Virus record (IMG/VR): IMGVR_UViG_3300035698_012075
Span: 1 to 20,942 of that record
Source of the DNA: a virus
DNA length: 20,942 nucleotides
Strand: one strand, 5' to 3'
Shown: positions 2,837-20,154 of the stretch, piece by piece
Position numbering within the stretch: the stretch's first letter is position 1
Layout: each line of letters starts with the position of its first letter
Translations under genes and position numbers: made by a program
Notes under the pieces: model-generated
What the model saw: the letters and a program-made list of their open reading frames with translations, nothing else
Told to the model about the DNA's origin: nothing
The model's database searches: none

Positions 2837-4476
2837 ACGATAAACTCATAACAGTATTTAGAGAAAGACTTGTCTCTGGACTCCGCAGAAAGTCTATTAC
2901 TACAGCATCCAAGTGGGCAGAAGCCTACCGCGTTATGGGTATGCCACTTCCTGGTCCTTGGGCATTTAAGCGCCATCCTTGGCTTCGAGAAATGCATGAT
3001 TGTGAAGACGACTGGGTAGGGCAAAAAGCGGCTCAGATGGGATTCACTGAGACATGTTTAAATGTAACTTTATTTACTATCGACGTAAAGGCCGAGTCTA
3101 TCCTCTATGTACTACCAGCATCGACACCAGATGCATCAGAATTTTCCGCATCAAGATTCGACCCTGCTCTTGAAATGTCTGACCACTTGAAAAACCTCTT
3201 CTCTAAAGTCAAGAATATTGGTCACAAAAGGGCAGGGTCGGCCAACTTGTACATCAGAGGATCGCGTTCCCGTAGCCAGATGAAATCCGTACCAGTCAGT
3301 AAGATTGTATTCGATGAGCTTGATGAAATGGTGCAAAAAAATGTAACACTAGCTCTTGAACGAACGTCCGGGCAAGTCAGCAGTCAGATAATAAAAATTT
3401 CTACGCCCACGATTGGCAACTTTGGAATATCGAGCGAGTACAATAATTCTACTGCTGAACACTATTTCTTCAGATGCCCAAATTGTGGGCACATGACTGA
3501 ATTAGTTTTTCCAGATTGTCTGGTCATGACCAGTGATGTAATTTCCGATCCTAAGATTTTAGAATCATATATCATATGCAAAGAATGTCTCGGTAAGCTG
3601 CCTCATGAAGATAAAGTTACATTTCTACAAGACGGCGAATGGGTGCCATCATTTGAGAATCGTATGGTCAGAGGCTTTCATGTTAATCAACTCTATTCCA
3701 CAACAGAGGCACCGAGTAAAATTGCCATATCCTACTTGCGAGGACTAACAAACCCAGAGGATGAAACAGAATTCTATAACTCGAAGCTTGGTATCCCACA
3801 TGAAGTCGAAGGCGCACGAATCACAGACGGATTTTTAGATCAATGTGTCGGTGAATATATCTCGGGCCCCAAGAAGCATGGTATAGTAACAATGGGTATT
3901 GATGTTGGAAAATTTCTACATTACGAAATAGCCTCGTGGTCACTTAGTGAATCTGAAAAAAGCAACAGCCTGATAGATGCTGTGCCTCAAGTTATTGCTG
4001 CAGGTAAAGTAGAAAATTTTGAAGACCTAGATGCCATATTGAAAGAGTATAGGGTCTTGTTTGCTGTCATCGATGCAAATCCAGAACGACGTAAAGCTCT
4101 AGAATTTGCACAACGCTTCTATGGGTTAGTTAAGCTTTGCTTTTATGGTATGGGTGTCAGTGGTAAAGAGCTTCATATGCATGCTGAAGAAGATTGTACA
4201 ATAACTGTGGATAGAACATCTTGGATGGATGCAGCACTTAGTAGATTTAAAAATCAACTTATCTCTCTACCAAAGGATATTTCCATTGAATACCGTTCTC
4301 ATTTAAAGATACCAACTCGTACTTACGAGAAAGATAAACGTGGTAATCCTGTAGGTAGATTCCTGACACCAGCAAATGCTGCTGATCACTTTGCTCATGC
4401 TAGAACGTATAGTGAGATAGCTCTTGCTATTGTTGTTTCGCAAGATGTTGCTAAAGATATTAATAATGTATACTAG
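2833..4476 (+). CDS. Terminase large subunit, lambda gpA-like (GpA family)
   Basis: ATP-driven DNA packaging motor and headful or cos nuclease that docks on the portal. The 547-residue length fits the gpA family. The N-terminal ATPase shows PGPWAFKRHPWLREM before a Walker A-like QKAAQMGFTE (64-73) and Walker B with catalytic Glu in IVFDELD (158-164). A zinc-ribbon-like pair CPNC (215-218) and CKEC (249-252) sits between the domains, as in this family. The nuclease half begins with GIDVG (355-359), supplying an acidic metal ligand, continues with VIDANPE (412-418), and has a late DHFAHA (518-523). Its start overlaps the upstream stop, and the portal gene follows after 9 bases. The family call is confident; the cos or pac mechanism cannot be told from sequence. 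Confidence 0.92.
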   Translation: MNDKLITVFRERLVSGLRRKSITTASKWAEAYRVMGMPLPGPWAFKRHPWLREMHDCEDDWVGQKAAQMGFTETCLNVTLFTIDVKAESILYVLPASTPDASEFSASRFDPALEMSDHLKNLFSKVKNIGHKRAGSANLYIRGSRSRSQMKSVPVSKIVFDELDEMVQKNVTLALERTSGQVSSQIIKISTPTIGNFGISSEYNNSTAEHYFFRCPNCGHMTELVFPDCLVMTSDVISDPKILESYIICKECLGKLPHEDKVTFLQDGEWVPSFENRMVRGFHVNQLYSTTEAPSKIAISYLRGLTNPEDETEFYNSKLGIPHEVEGARITDGFLDQCVGEYISGPKKHGIVTMGIDVGKFLHYEIASWSLSESEKSNSLIDAVPQVIAAGKVENFEDLDAILKEYRVLFAVIDANPERRKALEFAQRFYGLVKLCFYGMGVSGKELHMHAEEDCTITVDRTSWMDAALSRFKNQLISLPKDISIEYRSHLKIPTRTYEKDKRGNPVGRFLTPANAADHFAHARTYSEIALAIVVSQDVAKDINNVY

Positions 4477-4485
4477 GAGTTAAAT

Positions 4486-6144
4486 ATGAAACCAAGTCAT
4501 CATCCTGATTATGTTGCTAATATAACTGATTGGGCAAAATATCGGGCGACTTTAGCTAGTGGTAAAGCATTTGTTGATTCATACTTGAAACAGTATTCAA
4601 CTAAAGAGTCAACAGTTGATTATGCTCTACGTAAGGACATATCTTATTGTCCAGCGCATGCTAAATCTGCTCTTCTAGAGGTTAAAGACTCTATTTATCA
4701 GAAAATGGCAGACATCATCCGAAAAACAGGATGCAAAGAGTATAATGCGGCAGTTACTGGTCAAGGCAAAGGTATTGACCTTTGTGGAAATACCATGAAT
4801 AACTTCATTGGGTCCAAGATTCTTGAAGAATTGCTAGCGCTAGGTAAGGTTGGTGTCTTCATAGATCGCCAGAAAATCCAAGACAATGCTACATTAGTAG
4901 AATCAAAGGGTTCCTTGCCCTATCTTTATATGTATCATGCCGAAGAAATTTTGTCTTGGTCATATGATGAAAATGGCCAACTAAAACGTATTCTACTTGA
5001 AGATACTATCCTTATAAATGATGAAGAAACAGGTCTTCCAACTAGTGAGGAAGTCCAATATCGTTTGTTAGTGAAAACAGAAACAGGTATTGATGTTTTA
5101 TTCTATGATGGAGATGGCAAAGAGGTACCAAATAGTAGAATGCTTCTTAAATTGAAACAAATACCATTTGTGATTTTTGAAATCTCAAACTCATTACTAA
5201 CAGACATTGCCGATTATCAGATTGCTCATCTCAATCTTGCTTCATCGGATATGAACTATGCTTTCAGAAGTAATTTCCCGTTTTATACTGAGCAATACTC
5301 AGCTCTAACGGATAATGCTGCTAAGCAAGCTGCTGGTGACGACGATGTTAAAACAAATCTCGAAGTTGGTGTATCTCAAGGTCGTCGCTACCCTAAAGGT
5401 CTAGAGAGACCTGGATTTATTCATCCTTCCGCAGAGCCACTTAGAGCTTCGATGGAGAAACAAGATAATCTTAAGCTAGAGATACGAACCCTGATACATT
5501 TAGCAGTAACTAATGTTACTCCTGGTAGAGCATCTGCGGAGTCAAAAACTGCAGATCAAAGGGGTCTTGAAGCAGGACTAGGTAATATTGGTCTTGAACT
5601 AGAATATGGCGAACGACAAATTGCAATGATATATTGTGATTATCTTGGCGTCAAGTCCGACAATACTGTTATTACGTATCCCCGGCGTTATGACCTTAGG
5701 ACTGATGAAGACTACAGTAATGAGGCCGACCGACTGTCTAATATGATGATTAAGTCACCATCGAAAACTTATCAGAAGGTCATTGCTAAGAAAATCGCTA
5801 GATTAACTGTTGGTAGGGAAATCACTATCGAACAAATGACAAAGATTGAAAAAGAAATCGATGAAGCTGCCACCGTTATTGTCGATCCTGAAATCTTACT
5901 AAAGGATATTGAAGCTAGTTTGGTTTCCGAAGAAACAGCAAGCAAGTTGCGAGGCTATCCAAAGGGTGAAGTCGAGAAAGCTCGTAAAGATCATGCCGAA
6001 AGAGCCGTGCGTGTGGCTGCAGCGCAAAGTAAAGCTGGCATCACTGCTGCAAATCCTGGTGCTCGCGGTACTAAAGACTTGGATCCAACAGGAACCGGAC
6101 CTAAAGACGAAAAGAATTTAGCCGAGTTGGAGAATACTAAATGA
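4486..6144 (+). CDS. Portal protein (DUF4055-like)
   Basis: A 552-residue protein directly after the large terminase, the usual place and size for a phage portal, the dodecameric ring through which DNA enters and to which the tail joins. The N-terminus (HPDYVANITDWAKYRATLASG, about 6-26) resembles the start of DUF4055 portal proteins, where a His-Pro-x-Tyr, a Trp and an Arg/Gly pattern precede a YL motif (here SYLKQYS). The middle alternates strands and long helices. The last about 70 residues are Ala/Lys/Glu-rich, probably disordered. AGGAG lies before ATG. The stop overlaps the next start by ATGA. Portal assignment rests on context plus the weak N-terminal match. Confidence 0.8.
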   Translation: MKPSHHPDYVANITDWAKYRATLASGKAFVDSYLKQYSTKESTVDYALRKDISYCPAHAKSALLEVKDSIYQKMADIIRKTGCKEYNAAVTGQGKGIDLCGNTMNNFIGSKILEELLALGKVGVFIDRQKIQDNATLVESKGSLPYLYMYHAEEILSWSYDENGQLKRILLEDTILINDEETGLPTSEEVQYRLLVKTETGIDVLFYDGDGKEVPNSRMLLKLKQIPFVIFEISNSLLTDIADYQIAHLNLASSDMNYAFRSNFPFYTEQYSALTDNAAKQAAGDDDVKTNLEVGVSQGRRYPKGLERPGFIHPSAEPLRASMEKQDNLKLEIRTLIHLAVTNVTPGRASAESKTADQRGLEAGLGNIGLELEYGERQIAMIYCDYLGVKSDNTVITYPRRYDLRTDEDYSNEADRLSNMMIKSPSKTYQKVIAKKIARLTVGREITIEQMTKIEKEIDEAATVIVDPEILLKDIEASLVSEETASKLRGYPKGEVEKARKDHAERAVRVAAAQSKAGITAANPGARGTKDLDPTGTGPKDEKNLAELENTK

Positions 6145-10242: not shown

Positions 10243-10743
10243 ATGATTATAGATATTAAAAATTGTGATCTCTCTATTCAAGATGGCGATGGGCATTCGC
10301 TTACAATGCGTATTGGAGCGGGTAACTTGACATGGACAGCTGGAACACCACGTGAATATATCCTCGATAGGGGCACGATATGGGGTGTTCGTAATGCTGA
10401 TGAAGTTCCTATGGATGTTAAGTTTGACTTCGTATGGGAATATTTAAAAATATCTCCTGGAAGTGGTGATGTTGGTATTTTAGATGCCTTTAGTGGTGAA
10501 GGTTCGGCAGCGACTGCAGGTTGGATTTCTACGGATGATGATGCTTGTAACCCGTATGCTGTCGATATTGTCGTTGTCCATGCTCCATTGCCGATTAATT
10601 GTGGGGACAAGGAAACATATACGTTCCCTGATTTCCGTGTTGAGTCTAAAGATGGTGATCTTAAGGCAGGTACTATCAGTGCTACTGGTAAGTGCAATGC
10701 TAAGGAACCAATTATTCTTCGTGAAGAACAATCTAATGTTTAG
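10243..10743 (+). CDS. Major tail tube protein
   Basis: A 166-residue, strand-rich, acidic protein placed directly before the chaperone and tape-measure genes, where siphoviruses encode the tube subunit that stacks as hexamer rings. Typical features are the opening DIKNCDLSIQDGDG, alternating strands with many Gly/Asp turns, and a C-terminal pair with GTISATGKCNAKEPI, similar in style to tube proteins. AAGGAG precedes ATG. A paired contractile sheath gene is absent, arguing for a non-contractile tail. Confidence 0.75.
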   Translation: MIIDIKNCDLSIQDGDGHSLTMRIGAGNLTWTAGTPREYILDRGTIWGVRNADEVPMDVKFDFVWEYLKISPGSGDVGILDAFSGEGSAATAGWISTDDDACNPYAVDIVVVHAPLPINCGDKETYTFPDFRVESKDGDLKAGTISATGKCNAKEPIILREEQSNV

Positions 10744-10753
10744 GAGTTAAGAA

Positions 10754-11218
10754 ATGTTATTCAATGGAAAAAAGTATGATGGCCCGCGTGAAGCAATATG
10801 CGTTATTCCAAGAGACGGTGAAGATCTTGTCTTCAAAGCCCAAACTGTTGCATCGTTTGATGATTTCGATAAAGTGTGCCCGCAGCCCACTCCGCCTATT
10901 GTTGTACGACCTGGTGGACTTAAAAGTCAGGATGTTACTGACCCCGTATACACAAAAGCATTAACGAAGTGGGCAGAATACAAGACATGTTGGATTATAC
11001 TCAAGTCCCTTGAAGCTACTAAAGAGCTTACTTGGGAAAAAGTAGATATGTCTAATCCTGAAACATGGCCTGAGTATGCTACAGAGTTGAAAGAGTCCGG
11101 TTTTTCGGATCTTGAAGTATCTAGATTGATACAAATTGCTATTGAAGCAAATGGTCTAGATCAAGAAAAGATCGATCAAGCAACTCAACGTTTTTTAGCT
11201 ACTCGGCAGGAGCAGTAA
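10754..11218 (+). CDS. Tail assembly chaperone, G-like product (154 aa)
   Basis: Cytoplasmic chaperone that binds the tape measure during tail assembly, by analogy with lambda gpG. It lies between tube and tape-measure genes, is mixed helical and acidic, and has a conserved-looking middle (KALTKWAEYKTCWIILKSL) and a helical C-terminus (SGFSDLEVSRLIQIAIEANG). The key feature is a slippery heptamer T TTT TTA at 11191-11197, whose zero-frame codons are TTT (residue 147) and TTA (148), six codons before the normal stop. A -1 slip there leads into the open downstream frame, so this gene likely yields both a short form (154 aa) and a 220-aa fusion. AGGAG precedes ATG. Confidence 0.82.
   Translation: MLFNGKKYDGPREAICVIPRDGEDLVFKAQTVASFDDFDKVCPQPTPPIVVRPGGLKSQDVTDPVYTKALTKWAEYKTCWIILKSLEATKELTWEKVDMSNPETWPEYATELKESGFSDLEVSRLIQIAIEANGLDQEKIDQATQRFLATRQEQ
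11191..11197 (+). other. -1 programmed frameshift site T TTT TTA
   Basis: The heptamer X XXY YYZ with X and Y both T and Z = A is in the correct frame of the chaperone gene (CGT TTT TTA GCT). It is one of the classic -1 slippery sequences. The -1 frame from 11197 is open to the TAG at 11413-11415, and a hairpin lies downstream. Confidence 0.85.
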
Positions 11219-11415
11219 GACAACGAAACCTGCCTAAAGGCAGGACTGAATTATATGCTATTTGGAGGGTTTGTGAGAGGATGGACATAAAACCTGATAA
11301 TGTTAATCCTGTCTGGTCTCAAAATGATATTTGGACACAAGCCCTTCTTATAGCATATAGTCAGGTACGTGAATATGAAGAATCAGAATCACGCGGTTCT
11401 TGCCCAATGATTTAG
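11197..11415 (+). CDS. T-like extension of the tail assembly chaperone (-1 frame)
   Basis: This is a 72-residue open -1 frame read after the slip at T TTT TTA, giving a 220-residue G-T fusion with residues 1-148 of the upstream gene. It has no stop before 11413. The extension looks like a folded domain: NLPKGRTELYAIWRV, then NPVWSQNDIWTQALLIAYSQ and REYEESE, with three Trp and a final amphipathic helix as in T-domains of siphovirus chaperones. An in-frame ATG at 11281 could give a separate 44-aa peptide, but its GGAGGG is 11 bases upstream, and the frame stays open well before that ATG, favouring frameshift. The fusion is expected to link tape measure and tube subunits. Confidence 0.8.
   Translation, partial: SYSAGAVRQRNLPKGRTELYAIWRVCERMDIKPDNVNPVWSQNDIWTQALLIAYSQVREYEESESRGSCPMI
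11229..11244 (+). other. Candidate frameshift-stimulating hairpin
   Basis: A perfect 6-bp GC-rich stem, CCTGCC / GGCAGG, with loop TAAA, begins 31 bases after the slippery heptamer and past the zero-frame stop. Stimulators are usually 5-9 bases downstream, so it may act only as part of a larger structure, or be incidental. Confidence 0.4.
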
Positions 11416-11424
11416 GAAATCAGC

Positions 11425-12024
11425 ATGCCAAGACAATTAAGTATGAAACGCCGCCCGCCCACTTATAAAGGGGGAGACAAACTCACTAAATATATTTTTG
11501 ACCATCTTGAAGAATGTTGGGCGTCGTCTGCTATAGCATGTATTAATGCTATGTCTTTAAGAATAAAAATAGATACAGGTATGTCCATGGGTTCTTTAGT
11601 ACCTTTGGCTAAAATTTTAAAACAACATACCACACGTAAGATTTATAGTAGAGTTTTTAGAGGGGGTAAGGCGCATGGTCTTGGAGCAAAAAGCCATTTA
11701 GCTCGATTTGCAAATCAAATAGGGCAACCGAAATCACATGCATTTGGTATACAACTTGGTGAAAATGCTTACAAACTTGGTTTTGCAAAATCAAAAAAAG
11801 GAACTTTTAGATTTCTATTTATACTTGCTGTATATCAGTATTATGTTCACGAAGCATCTGAAAATTGGCAATTATATCCTGGTGAATCTGGAAATTGGCG
11901 GTCAATGTTTTTTGGTAAGCAAGCTTTTGTTAAATCTTGGAAAGGGAATGTTTCAAGATACTTGAATGCAAAAAAAATTGCTGAGATACTAACCAAGCAA
12001 TTAAAATCTGGGTTAGGAAATTAA
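11425..12024 (+). CDS. Neck/tail completion-like protein, HK97 gp10-type pattern
   Basis: A 199-residue basic protein. The segment IKIDTGMSMGSLVPLA resembles the TGxLxxSI region of HK97-gp10-like tail completion proteins, and the basic, helical layout with an aromatic-rich middle (FRFLFILAVYQYYVHEA) is compatible. No similarity is certain. Its place between the chaperone and tape-measure genes is unusual for that family, which normally lies before the tail terminator. It might instead be a minor tail or a second chaperone-like component. AGGAAA precedes the ATG. The tape-measure gene starts three bases after its stop. Confidence 0.45.
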   Translation: MPRQLSMKRRPPTYKGGDKLTKYIFDHLEECWASSAIACINAMSLRIKIDTGMSMGSLVPLAKILKQHTTRKIYSRVFRGGKAHGLGAKSHLARFANQIGQPKSHAFGIQLGENAYKLGFAKSKKGTFRFLFILAVYQYYVHEASENWQLYPGESGNWRSMFFGKQAFVKSWKGNVSRYLNAKKIAEILTKQLKSGLGN

Positions 12025-18168: not shown

Positions 18169-20154
18169 ATGGCAAATCTGACAGGATATGCTTGGTCGCA
18201 GAAAGTAAGCGTGACGGGTAACAAGCCCGCGAGTTCGCTTGCGTATTTCCCCGGATACGTTAGGTTTGCCACGTCAACCGAACTCAACGACTACACACTC
18301 AACAGCGGACTAGACATTGCGTTCACACTCGACGGAGATTCAACGCCGCTCCCTTATCAGCGGGAATACTGGACGGACAACGGAGCAAATGTTGATGCAG
18401 GTTTTTGGGTTCGTGTTCCCTCTGTTGGTTCTGCTAGTGATACGGATTTGCGAATCTACATCGGCAAGACGGGTGGCACAGCATATACGCCAGTCAGCGA
18501 TGTGTGGAACGAAAATGGAGCAGGAAACTTCAAAGGCGTGTGGCACTTTAACGAATTGGCAGGATGGGTTGCTGGTGGTGCTGACTACATCAAAGATTCT
18601 GCCGGGACAAATCATGGGCGAGCATACAATGATGTGGACGCAGGCGAAGGCATGGTTGATGGCGGTGCTGCATTTGGCATTACCTTTGATGAAGTGGATG
18701 CTCCTGATAGTAGTAGTCTTCGACTCACGGGCAACATAACTTTATCGGCATGGGTAAAGCCAACGGGTAATGGTGGAAGTTATCCACAAATCGCAGGACG
18801 CGATTATGTTAAAGAGTATTCTTTACGACTATGGAGCAATACTCGGGTACCTTTCATTTCCGTGAAGAACACCCATGTTAAGGCAACGGGGTCGATTGCG
18901 GCCAATGCATGGTCACATGTCCTAGTATCTTACGATGGCTCAAACGCCAGCTTTTTCATAAACGGCGTGGCGGCGGGAACGCCTGCGCTGACCGCAATTC
19001 CGGACGGCGGATATGAAATCTTTAGAATTGGGTCAAGGGCAACGTCATTCCCTTTTAACGGTAACTTAGACGAAGTCCGTGTAGCCGCAACCACACGCAC
19101 AGTGGCATGGGTATTATTCGAGGTTAATAACATTGCGGACTACGCGGGCACGATAACACACGGCGCTTGGGAACTGCCTCTACCAACAGGCTTGACCGCA
19201 TCGGATGGAACGTATGCCGATAAAATTGCATTAACATGGGATGCGTACCCAACAGCAGATACATTCGAGGTTTGGCGTTCAGAGACTGACGAAATTGGAA
19301 CAGCCACAAAATTTGCAGACGGGATTTTAACATCAGCCTACAATGATACGGTTGATGATATAACAACATTCGCTGATGTTACTTATTATTATTGGGTATT
19401 GGCCGTAGTCTCTGGTACACCTTCTGGATACAGCGCCAGCGACAGCGGGTATGCTTTTATTCCAACATTGCCGACTGGATTAACTGCATCAGATGGTACT
19501 TATGATACAAAAATAGCATTGGCTTGGGACGCTTATCCCACAGCAGATACCTTTGAAGTTTGGCGAGCTTTAACAAATAATATAAATAATGCAAACTTAC
19601 TTGTTGAAGACTTAGTAACAAATTCTTATGATGATATGGTCAATGGGTCTACTACATTGTTGCATATAATTTATTATTATTGGGTAGTAGCCGTTGTCGA
19701 TAGTATAAAGTCAGACTATAGTTCAAATGATTCGGGATATGCTGGAGAAATTATACCTTCAGAATGTGATGAAGAGGAAGTAACAACAAATACTTCTGTA
19801 ACTTTTGAAATTGTTGATACTGTATTTGAAATAGAATTACCTGCCCCAATATTGGGTGATTCTGAAATCATAGACTTAAAAACATATTTTAATATGGCTA
19901 TGTCTGGACTGGTATATAGCCATATTAAAACTGAACCTGTATCAAAGATGCATATGACATTTTCTTCATTGTCATGGACCAAGAAAAATTCTTTATTAGA
20001 CTTTATCAATGAAGCTATGGGTGAATTAACAGATATGGTATATTATGACGGTATAACCCTTAGAGGGTATTTCGTAAATGACCCAACAGTTATAAAAAAT
20101 AGAAGCAGTTCGCTGTATGAAGTAACAATAGACTTTGAAGGAGATAGATTATGA
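18169..20154 (+). CDS. Tail tip/adhesin protein: DUF2341-LamG-FN3-FN3-Dit-like
   Basis: A 661-residue composite host-contact protein. Residues about 5-115 fit DUF2341 (YAWSQKVSV opener; WVRVPSVGSASDTDLRIYIG). Residues 120-320 form a LamG/jelly-roll domain (GVWHFNE, LRLTGNITLSAWVKP, NAWSHVLVSYDGS, GNLDEVRV). Two FN3-like repeats follow, about 338-433 and 434-530, each with LPTGLTASDGTY and WDAYPTADTFEVWR. Residues 557-661 are a C-terminal domain paralogous to the upstream distal-tail protein. LamG and FN3 domains bind glycans or other surfaces, so this probably decorates the tail tip and helps choose the host. The 5' part is GC-rich and the 3' part AT-rich, with a break near 19450. GAGGATAAA precedes the ATG. 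Confidence 0.8.
   Translation: MANLTGYAWSQKVSVTGNKPASSLAYFPGYVRFATSTELNDYTLNSGLDIAFTLDGDSTPLPYQREYWTDNGANVDAGFWVRVPSVGSASDTDLRIYIGKTGGTAYTPVSDVWNENGAGNFKGVWHFNELAGWVAGGADYIKDSAGTNHGRAYNDVDAGEGMVDGGAAFGITFDEVDAPDSSSLRLTGNITLSAWVKPTGNGGSYPQIAGRDYVKEYSLRLWSNTRVPFISVKNTHVKATGSIAANAWSHVLVSYDGSNASFFINGVAAGTPALTAIPDGGYEIFRIGSRATSFPFNGNLDEVRVAATTRTVAWVLFEVNNIADYAGTITHGAWELPLPTGLTASDGTYADKIALTWDAYPTADTFEVWRSETDEIGTATKFADGILTSAYNDTVDDITTFADVTYYYWVLAVVSGTPSGYSASDSGYAFIPTLPTGLTASDGTYDTKIALAWDAYPTADTFEVWRALTNNINNANLLVEDLVTNSYDDMVNGSTTLLHIIYYYWVVAVVDSIKSDYSSNDSGYAGEIIPSECDEEEVTTNTSVTFEIVDTVFEIELPAPILGDSEIIDLKTYFNMAMSGLVYSHIKTEPVSKMHMTFSSLSWTKKNSLLDFINEAMGELTDMVYYDGITLRGYFVNDPTVIKNRSSSLYEVTIDFEGDRL

Follow-up and report, generated by a model that had tools for sequence, protein, structure and literature searches.

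A gene of the window (the whole stretch of DNA analysed here, a virus record of 20,942 bases) very probably undergoes programmed −1 ribosomal frameshifting within a phage tail assembly chaperone locus, by which the chaperone-like protein G would be extended with a second domain, T, read in the −1 frame. The slipping, its rate and the chaperone function are what we infer; the sequence and its comparison with relatives give the site, the overlapping frame, their conservation, coding selection on T and the fixed place of the shift. A −1 programmed frameshift giving a G-T-like fusion had been proposed in a first-pass annotation, and among the readings considered it alone fits all the data: the T frame lay at −1 to G in all 106 distinct loci collected, T was conserved as protein, most relatives lacked a separate start for it, the shift codon was fixed and the neighbours were tail genes.

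Gene G, its slip site and the −1 frame

Gene G starts with ATG at 10754 and ends with TAA at 11216–11218 (154 codons). Its codons 147 and 148 are TTT (11192–11194) and TTA (11195–11197), preceded by the T at 11191 from a CGT codon, so that the window contains an X_XXY_YYZ heptamer permitting re-pairing by both tRNAs. Six sense codons (GCT ACT CGG CAG GAG CAG) follow before the TAA of G, and the earlier placing of T_TTT_TTA in G's own frame, six codons ahead of its stop, was thus confirmed at 11191–11197. Read from AGC at 11197, the −1 frame stays open through 72 codons and ends at 11412, ahead of a stop at 11413–11415; upstream, the open −1 frame reaches its limit at 11146. The predicted G-T fusion comprises 148 + 72 = 220 aa with the junction ...RFL/SYSAG, and both the 72-codon frame running to 11413 and the 220-aa product claimed for it agreed with the sequence. 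As had also been pointed out, a plain ORF call yields a separate 44-aa peptide here: ORF 11281–11415 was the only one listed in the T region. The features of the locus are collected in Table 1.

Table 1. Features of the G/T locus and adjoining tail genes, in window coordinates.
Feature	Position	Strand	Basis
Probable tail tube protein	10243..10743	+	Position; conserved in relatives
Gene G, tail assembly chaperone-like, zero-frame product 154 aa	10754..11218	+	ORF; homologues, flanked by tail tube and tape measure genes, in 106 distinct loci
Slip site T_TTT_TTA (Phe147-Leu148 of G)	11191..11197	+	Sequence; same codon in relatives
T domain, −1 frame, 72 codons plus stop	11197..11415	+	Homologous protein in all relatives; pN/pS
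Candidate stimulatory RNA	11205..11244	+	Single-sequence folding; suggestive
199-aa gene between T and tape measure gene	11425..12024	+	Homologues in relatives
Tail length tape measure protein, 1772 aa	12028..17346	+	PHROG tape measure families, PhageMin_Tail

Chance occurrence was gauged by scanning the 18 clear genes of the window, which contain 6192 in-frame codon pairs. The loose XXXYYYZ form was present at 39 of these pairs and T_TTT_TTA once, in G. Among the slip-like heptamers of the window, the 72-codon open run in the −1 frame after the G heptamer was twice as long as the next longest (36 codons). As a check of the method, the same scan recovered the known G_GGA_AAG site of lambda and also picked out a G_GGA_AAC site in Dinoroseobacter phage R5C.

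Conservation of the shift site and of the T domain

A search with the single G sequence of the window turned up no relatives, whether in IMG/VR, in GTDB contigs or among named phages. Relatives were reached via the capsid protein and the tail tube protein, and then with profiles of the G and T families. Searching with the major capsid protein gave 20 IMG/VR loci (one of them protein-identical to the window across its 8 kb), and the tail tube protein added one more. Both G and T homologues were carried by 17 related loci (10 nonredundant sequences including the window), in which T was always in the −1 frame and an in-frame slip heptamer was always present (T6A, once T6C). The G and T profile searches yielded 160 further IMG/VR loci, some of which coincide with those already collected, and a single locus in a Chloroflexota (Anaerolinea) MAG. 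After removal of duplicates, 106 distinct G/T loci were left, window included. They share ancestry and are not 106 independent trials, but the end branches of the G+T tree are long, at a median of 0.35 changes per column. The loci retrieved with T as sole query brought no selection bias for the slip site. The family member on the Anaerolinea MAG contig (L183, DYKV01000002.1) hints that some of the family infect Chloroflexota, a binning error being possible. At another locus (L003), tandem tail tube homologues (4136–4552 and 4843–5211), 39% and 35% identical to that of the window, suggest a duplicated tube gene.

The T domain was in the −1 frame relative to G, and the shift site at the same G codon, in 106/106 loci. 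The same layout could arise, we reason, by a single-base difference if one continuous gene had been split by decay or by a sequencing or assembly error; its recurrence across many metagenomes, in 106 distinct loci, together with selection on T, makes such an origin practically negligible as an explanation. At the Phe147 codon the heptamers were T_TTT_TTA (75 loci), T_TTT_CTA (14), T_TTT_ATA (6), T_TTC_TTA (3), T_TTT_TTT (2), T_TTT_TTG (2) and, once each, T_TTT_TTC, T_TTT_GTA, T_TTT_ATG and T_TTC_TTG. The tetramer T_TTY was therefore present in all 106, and the full heptamer in 80. Homologues lacking both a slippery site and an open −1 frame, which the first-pass annotation had named as contrary evidence, were looked for and none was found; the 26 loci without the full heptamer keep T_TTY.

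Codon choice at this place departed strongly from that elsewhere. The codon before Phe147 specified nine different amino acids, yet it ended in T in every locus, where ~36 would be expected from the codon usage of the rest of these genes. TTT filled the Phe147 codon in 102/106 loci, against a share of 49% among Phe codons outside the site, and TTA was the next codon in 78/106, against 14% among Leu codons outside it. When the overlaps of the G and −1 frames were intersected over all loci, the shift was confined to an interval from −1 to +27 nt of the TTT. Since neither protein frame explains the bias at the site, a constraint on the RNA is indicated.

RNA polymerase slipping on the T run, to give a mixture of mRNAs, would be another way of joining the two frames, and the site in the window is indeed a run of six T. 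At the same place, however, some relatives have only three to five (gcTTTCTTA, cgTTTTATA, gTTTTTCTA), and polymerase slippage is not expected on runs that short. Transcriptional slippage is thus exceedingly unlikely, and slippage by the ribosome is the reading followed below.

The T region past the G stop gave a pN/pS of 0.22, with 30/30 pairs below 1 (pairs at 72–98% nucleotide identity), and 16 disjoint pairs gave 0.23. Changes at positions 1, 2 and 3 of the T-frame codons numbered 198, 123 and 442, the third position dominating. Judged by these substitution patterns, the T domain is under purifying selection. Eleven residues of T (F, R18, Y22, R26, C28, E29, R30, I33, P35, W42 and R60) were invariant in ten divergent sequences.

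T might instead be made as a separate small protein, from its own start or by translational coupling after G and without any frameshift, and a T-frame ATG is available at 11281 in the window. Starting there would lose the invariant Arg18, the conserved Tyr22 and the Trp/Arg block of T. In 88/106 loci the T frame had no ATG, GTG or TTG ahead of the invariant Arg, so that the domain can be made there only as a fusion; nor would a separate start account for T_TTY being invariant at a single G codon. We regard separate synthesis as very unlikely.

Proposed mechanism and RNA signals

In the mechanism proposed, most ribosomes would read G to its stop and produce the 154-aa chaperone. A minority would slip one base back at T_TTT_TTA, where tRNA-Phe, and usually tRNA-Leu too, would re-pair one base upstream; these ribosomes would then read on through the T domain and yield the 220-aa G-T fusion. 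Extrapolating from lambda, coating of the tape measure protein would fall to the G part and recruitment of tail tube subunits to the T part, with tail assembly controlled by a low ratio of G-T to G.

Frameshifting in E. coli has been documented for U_UUY tetramers and for sites of the U_UUU_UUA type (PMC4066793, PMC5009743); counting against the proposal, U_UUU_UUA is only a moderate slip site there (PMC5009743). At the U_UUU_UUA site of HIV, the shifted residue is Leu in 70–80% and Phe in 20–30% of the product (PMC5009743), and from this mixture both FLSYSAGAVR and FFSYSAGAVR are to be expected from the window. The junction peptide LSYSAG that had been suggested for detection by mass spectrometry therefore holds as one expected product but is incomplete, FFSYSAG being expected as well.

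In the G+T tree, the forms other than TTA arose by several separate changes (CTA at least three, ATA three), and T_TTY was kept in every row. CTA was among the rarest codons in the 26 loci without the full heptamer, and ATA likewise in those with an ATA site. Sites lacking the full heptamer (T_TTT_CTA, T_TTT_ATA, T_TTC_TTA) occur, for example, in L132, L134 and L142. We would give about even chances to the simplest reading of these sites, in which the required step is slippage of tRNA-Phe on the single-tRNA tetramer U_UUY, re-pairing by the next tRNA being helpful and not essential, and in which the codon after U_UUY drifts over evolution among UUA, CUA, AUA and others. If this is true, these phage sites would form a naturally occurring set in which slippage has shifted between the tandem and the single-tRNA mode while the protein product stayed the same.

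Downstream of the slip site in the window, GGCAGG (11205–11210), CCTGCC (11229–11234) and a second GGCAGG (11239–11244) can form two mutually exclusive 6-bp stems of −9.6 and −10.7 kcal/mol, the first beginning 7 nt past the slip site. A folding z of −4.3 was obtained for the 40 nt from 11201, and of only about −2 for longer spans. Consensus folding on the codon alignment of the family found no shared RNA structure 3′ of the slip site. The 26 loci without a full heptamer were more structured downstream than the other 80 (mean z −1.33 versus −0.31 over 50 nt; p 0.003, with no correction for shared ancestry or for the use of several spans). Where the second tRNA cannot re-pair, a stronger RNA structure downstream may make up for it. 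Upstream, a Shine-Dalgarno-like stretch was stronger in the family than in the control (−4.3 versus −2.3 kcal/mol); unlike this tendency in the relatives, such a stimulator was absent in the window. Its absence and the lack of conservation of the downstream hairpins speak against the proposed frameshift.

Neighbouring genes, novelty and comparison with known systems

The gene order in the window is tail tube, G, T, an extra gene and tape measure. The tape measure protein matched PHROG families (E to 1.6e-27) and PhageMin_Tail (E 1.7e-17); neither the probable tail tube protein nor the 199-aa product of the extra gene matched any family in the family libraries. ORFs of ~150–200 aa were present close 3′ of T in most loci. 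Elsewhere in the window, a tail-region protein (18169–20154) carries a lectin-like Laminin_G_3 domain and DUF2341 and is possibly host-binding, and 16 tandem copies of the 7-base GGCAAGA, 98% matching, lie at 1910–2018 in the stretch separating the first large ORF from the terminase genes.

An AlphaFold model of G had a pLDDT of 86. Its fold search against viral proteins gave weak matches, several of them annotated as tail assembly chaperones and none below E 0.001, and against PDB no match. The best of these matches was a protein of Bacillus phage Staley. In Bacillus phage Slash, presumably related to Staley, the genes before the tape measure gene had no −1 heptamer in their overlap. T alone was predicted as two helices with a pLDDT of 69 and found no fold match. 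Gene position and the weak fold matches together suggest a probable chaperone role for G and G-T.

Neither G nor T had a significant match in Pfam, PHROGs, NCBIfam or PDB sequences; among 50,697 named phage records, nothing convincingly matched the G/T family. The profile search of the T extension against phage families that had been put forward as a check likewise returned nothing significant in Pfam, PHROGs and NCBIfam, or against lambda T. Judged by these searches, the G/T family is new to the checked reference libraries; frameshifted tail chaperones as a kind are already known. The family is widespread, being carried by more than 100 distinct uncultured viral loci whose genes ORF callers split in two, and a G/T profile could allow proper annotation of such genomes. 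With natural heptamer and tetramer sites aligned at one codon, the minimal needs of a bacterial −1 shift become testable.

Tail chaperone frameshifts of dsDNA tailed phages have long been known (Xu et al. 2004, as cited in PMC5009743) and frameshifted tail chaperones were already on record in the PRFect survey (PMC10885494). The window shares with them the layout and the presumed purpose, as well as a slip site no more than tens of bases away from the G stop. In lambda, abundant G coats the tape measure and T, in the rarer fusion, recruits the tube protein, at a ratio of ~30:1 (PMC5009743). The order of tail tube, G, T and tape measure and a −1 shift near the end of G are common to lambda and the window. 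The two differ in slip site (G_GGA_AAG in lambda, T_TTT_TTA in the window), in the length of the T domain (144 aa versus 72 aa) and in the extra gene between T and the tape measure gene, which the window and most relatives have and lambda lacks. Profile comparison revealed no similarity between the G and T of the window and those of lambda.

Dinoroseobacter phage vB_DshS-R5C (NC_041921), whose coat and tape measure proteins are distant relatives of those of the window, has two annotated tail chaperones, gp061 and gp062, between tail tube and tape measure. From a G_GGA_AAC at the end of gp061, the −1 frame continues into gp062 (NC_041921 33731–34111; about 8232–8612 of L185); the record lists the two as separate genes, and the frameshift there appears to be unannotated. 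The slip sequence of R5C differs from that of the window, and no extra gene precedes its tape measure gene. By tblastn, the window G had no match in the named-phage collection that includes R5C. Neither G nor the 199-aa gene was similar to the Cr-LKS3 genes at the same place.

Insertion sequences offer a second comparison. Their frameshift sites are of the U_UUY tetramer and X_XXZ_ZZN heptamer kinds. In E. coli, U_UU.U and U_UU.C belong to the tetramers most prone to shifting, and they are the prevailing forms at the tetramer sites of insertion sequences (PMC4066793). These two tetramers match the T_TTY of the 106 loci; the shift in insertion sequences makes a transposase, whereas that of the window family would make a putative tail chaperone. 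Unlike the insertion-sequence sites, those of the window family alternate between tetramer and heptamer forms at one fixed codon.
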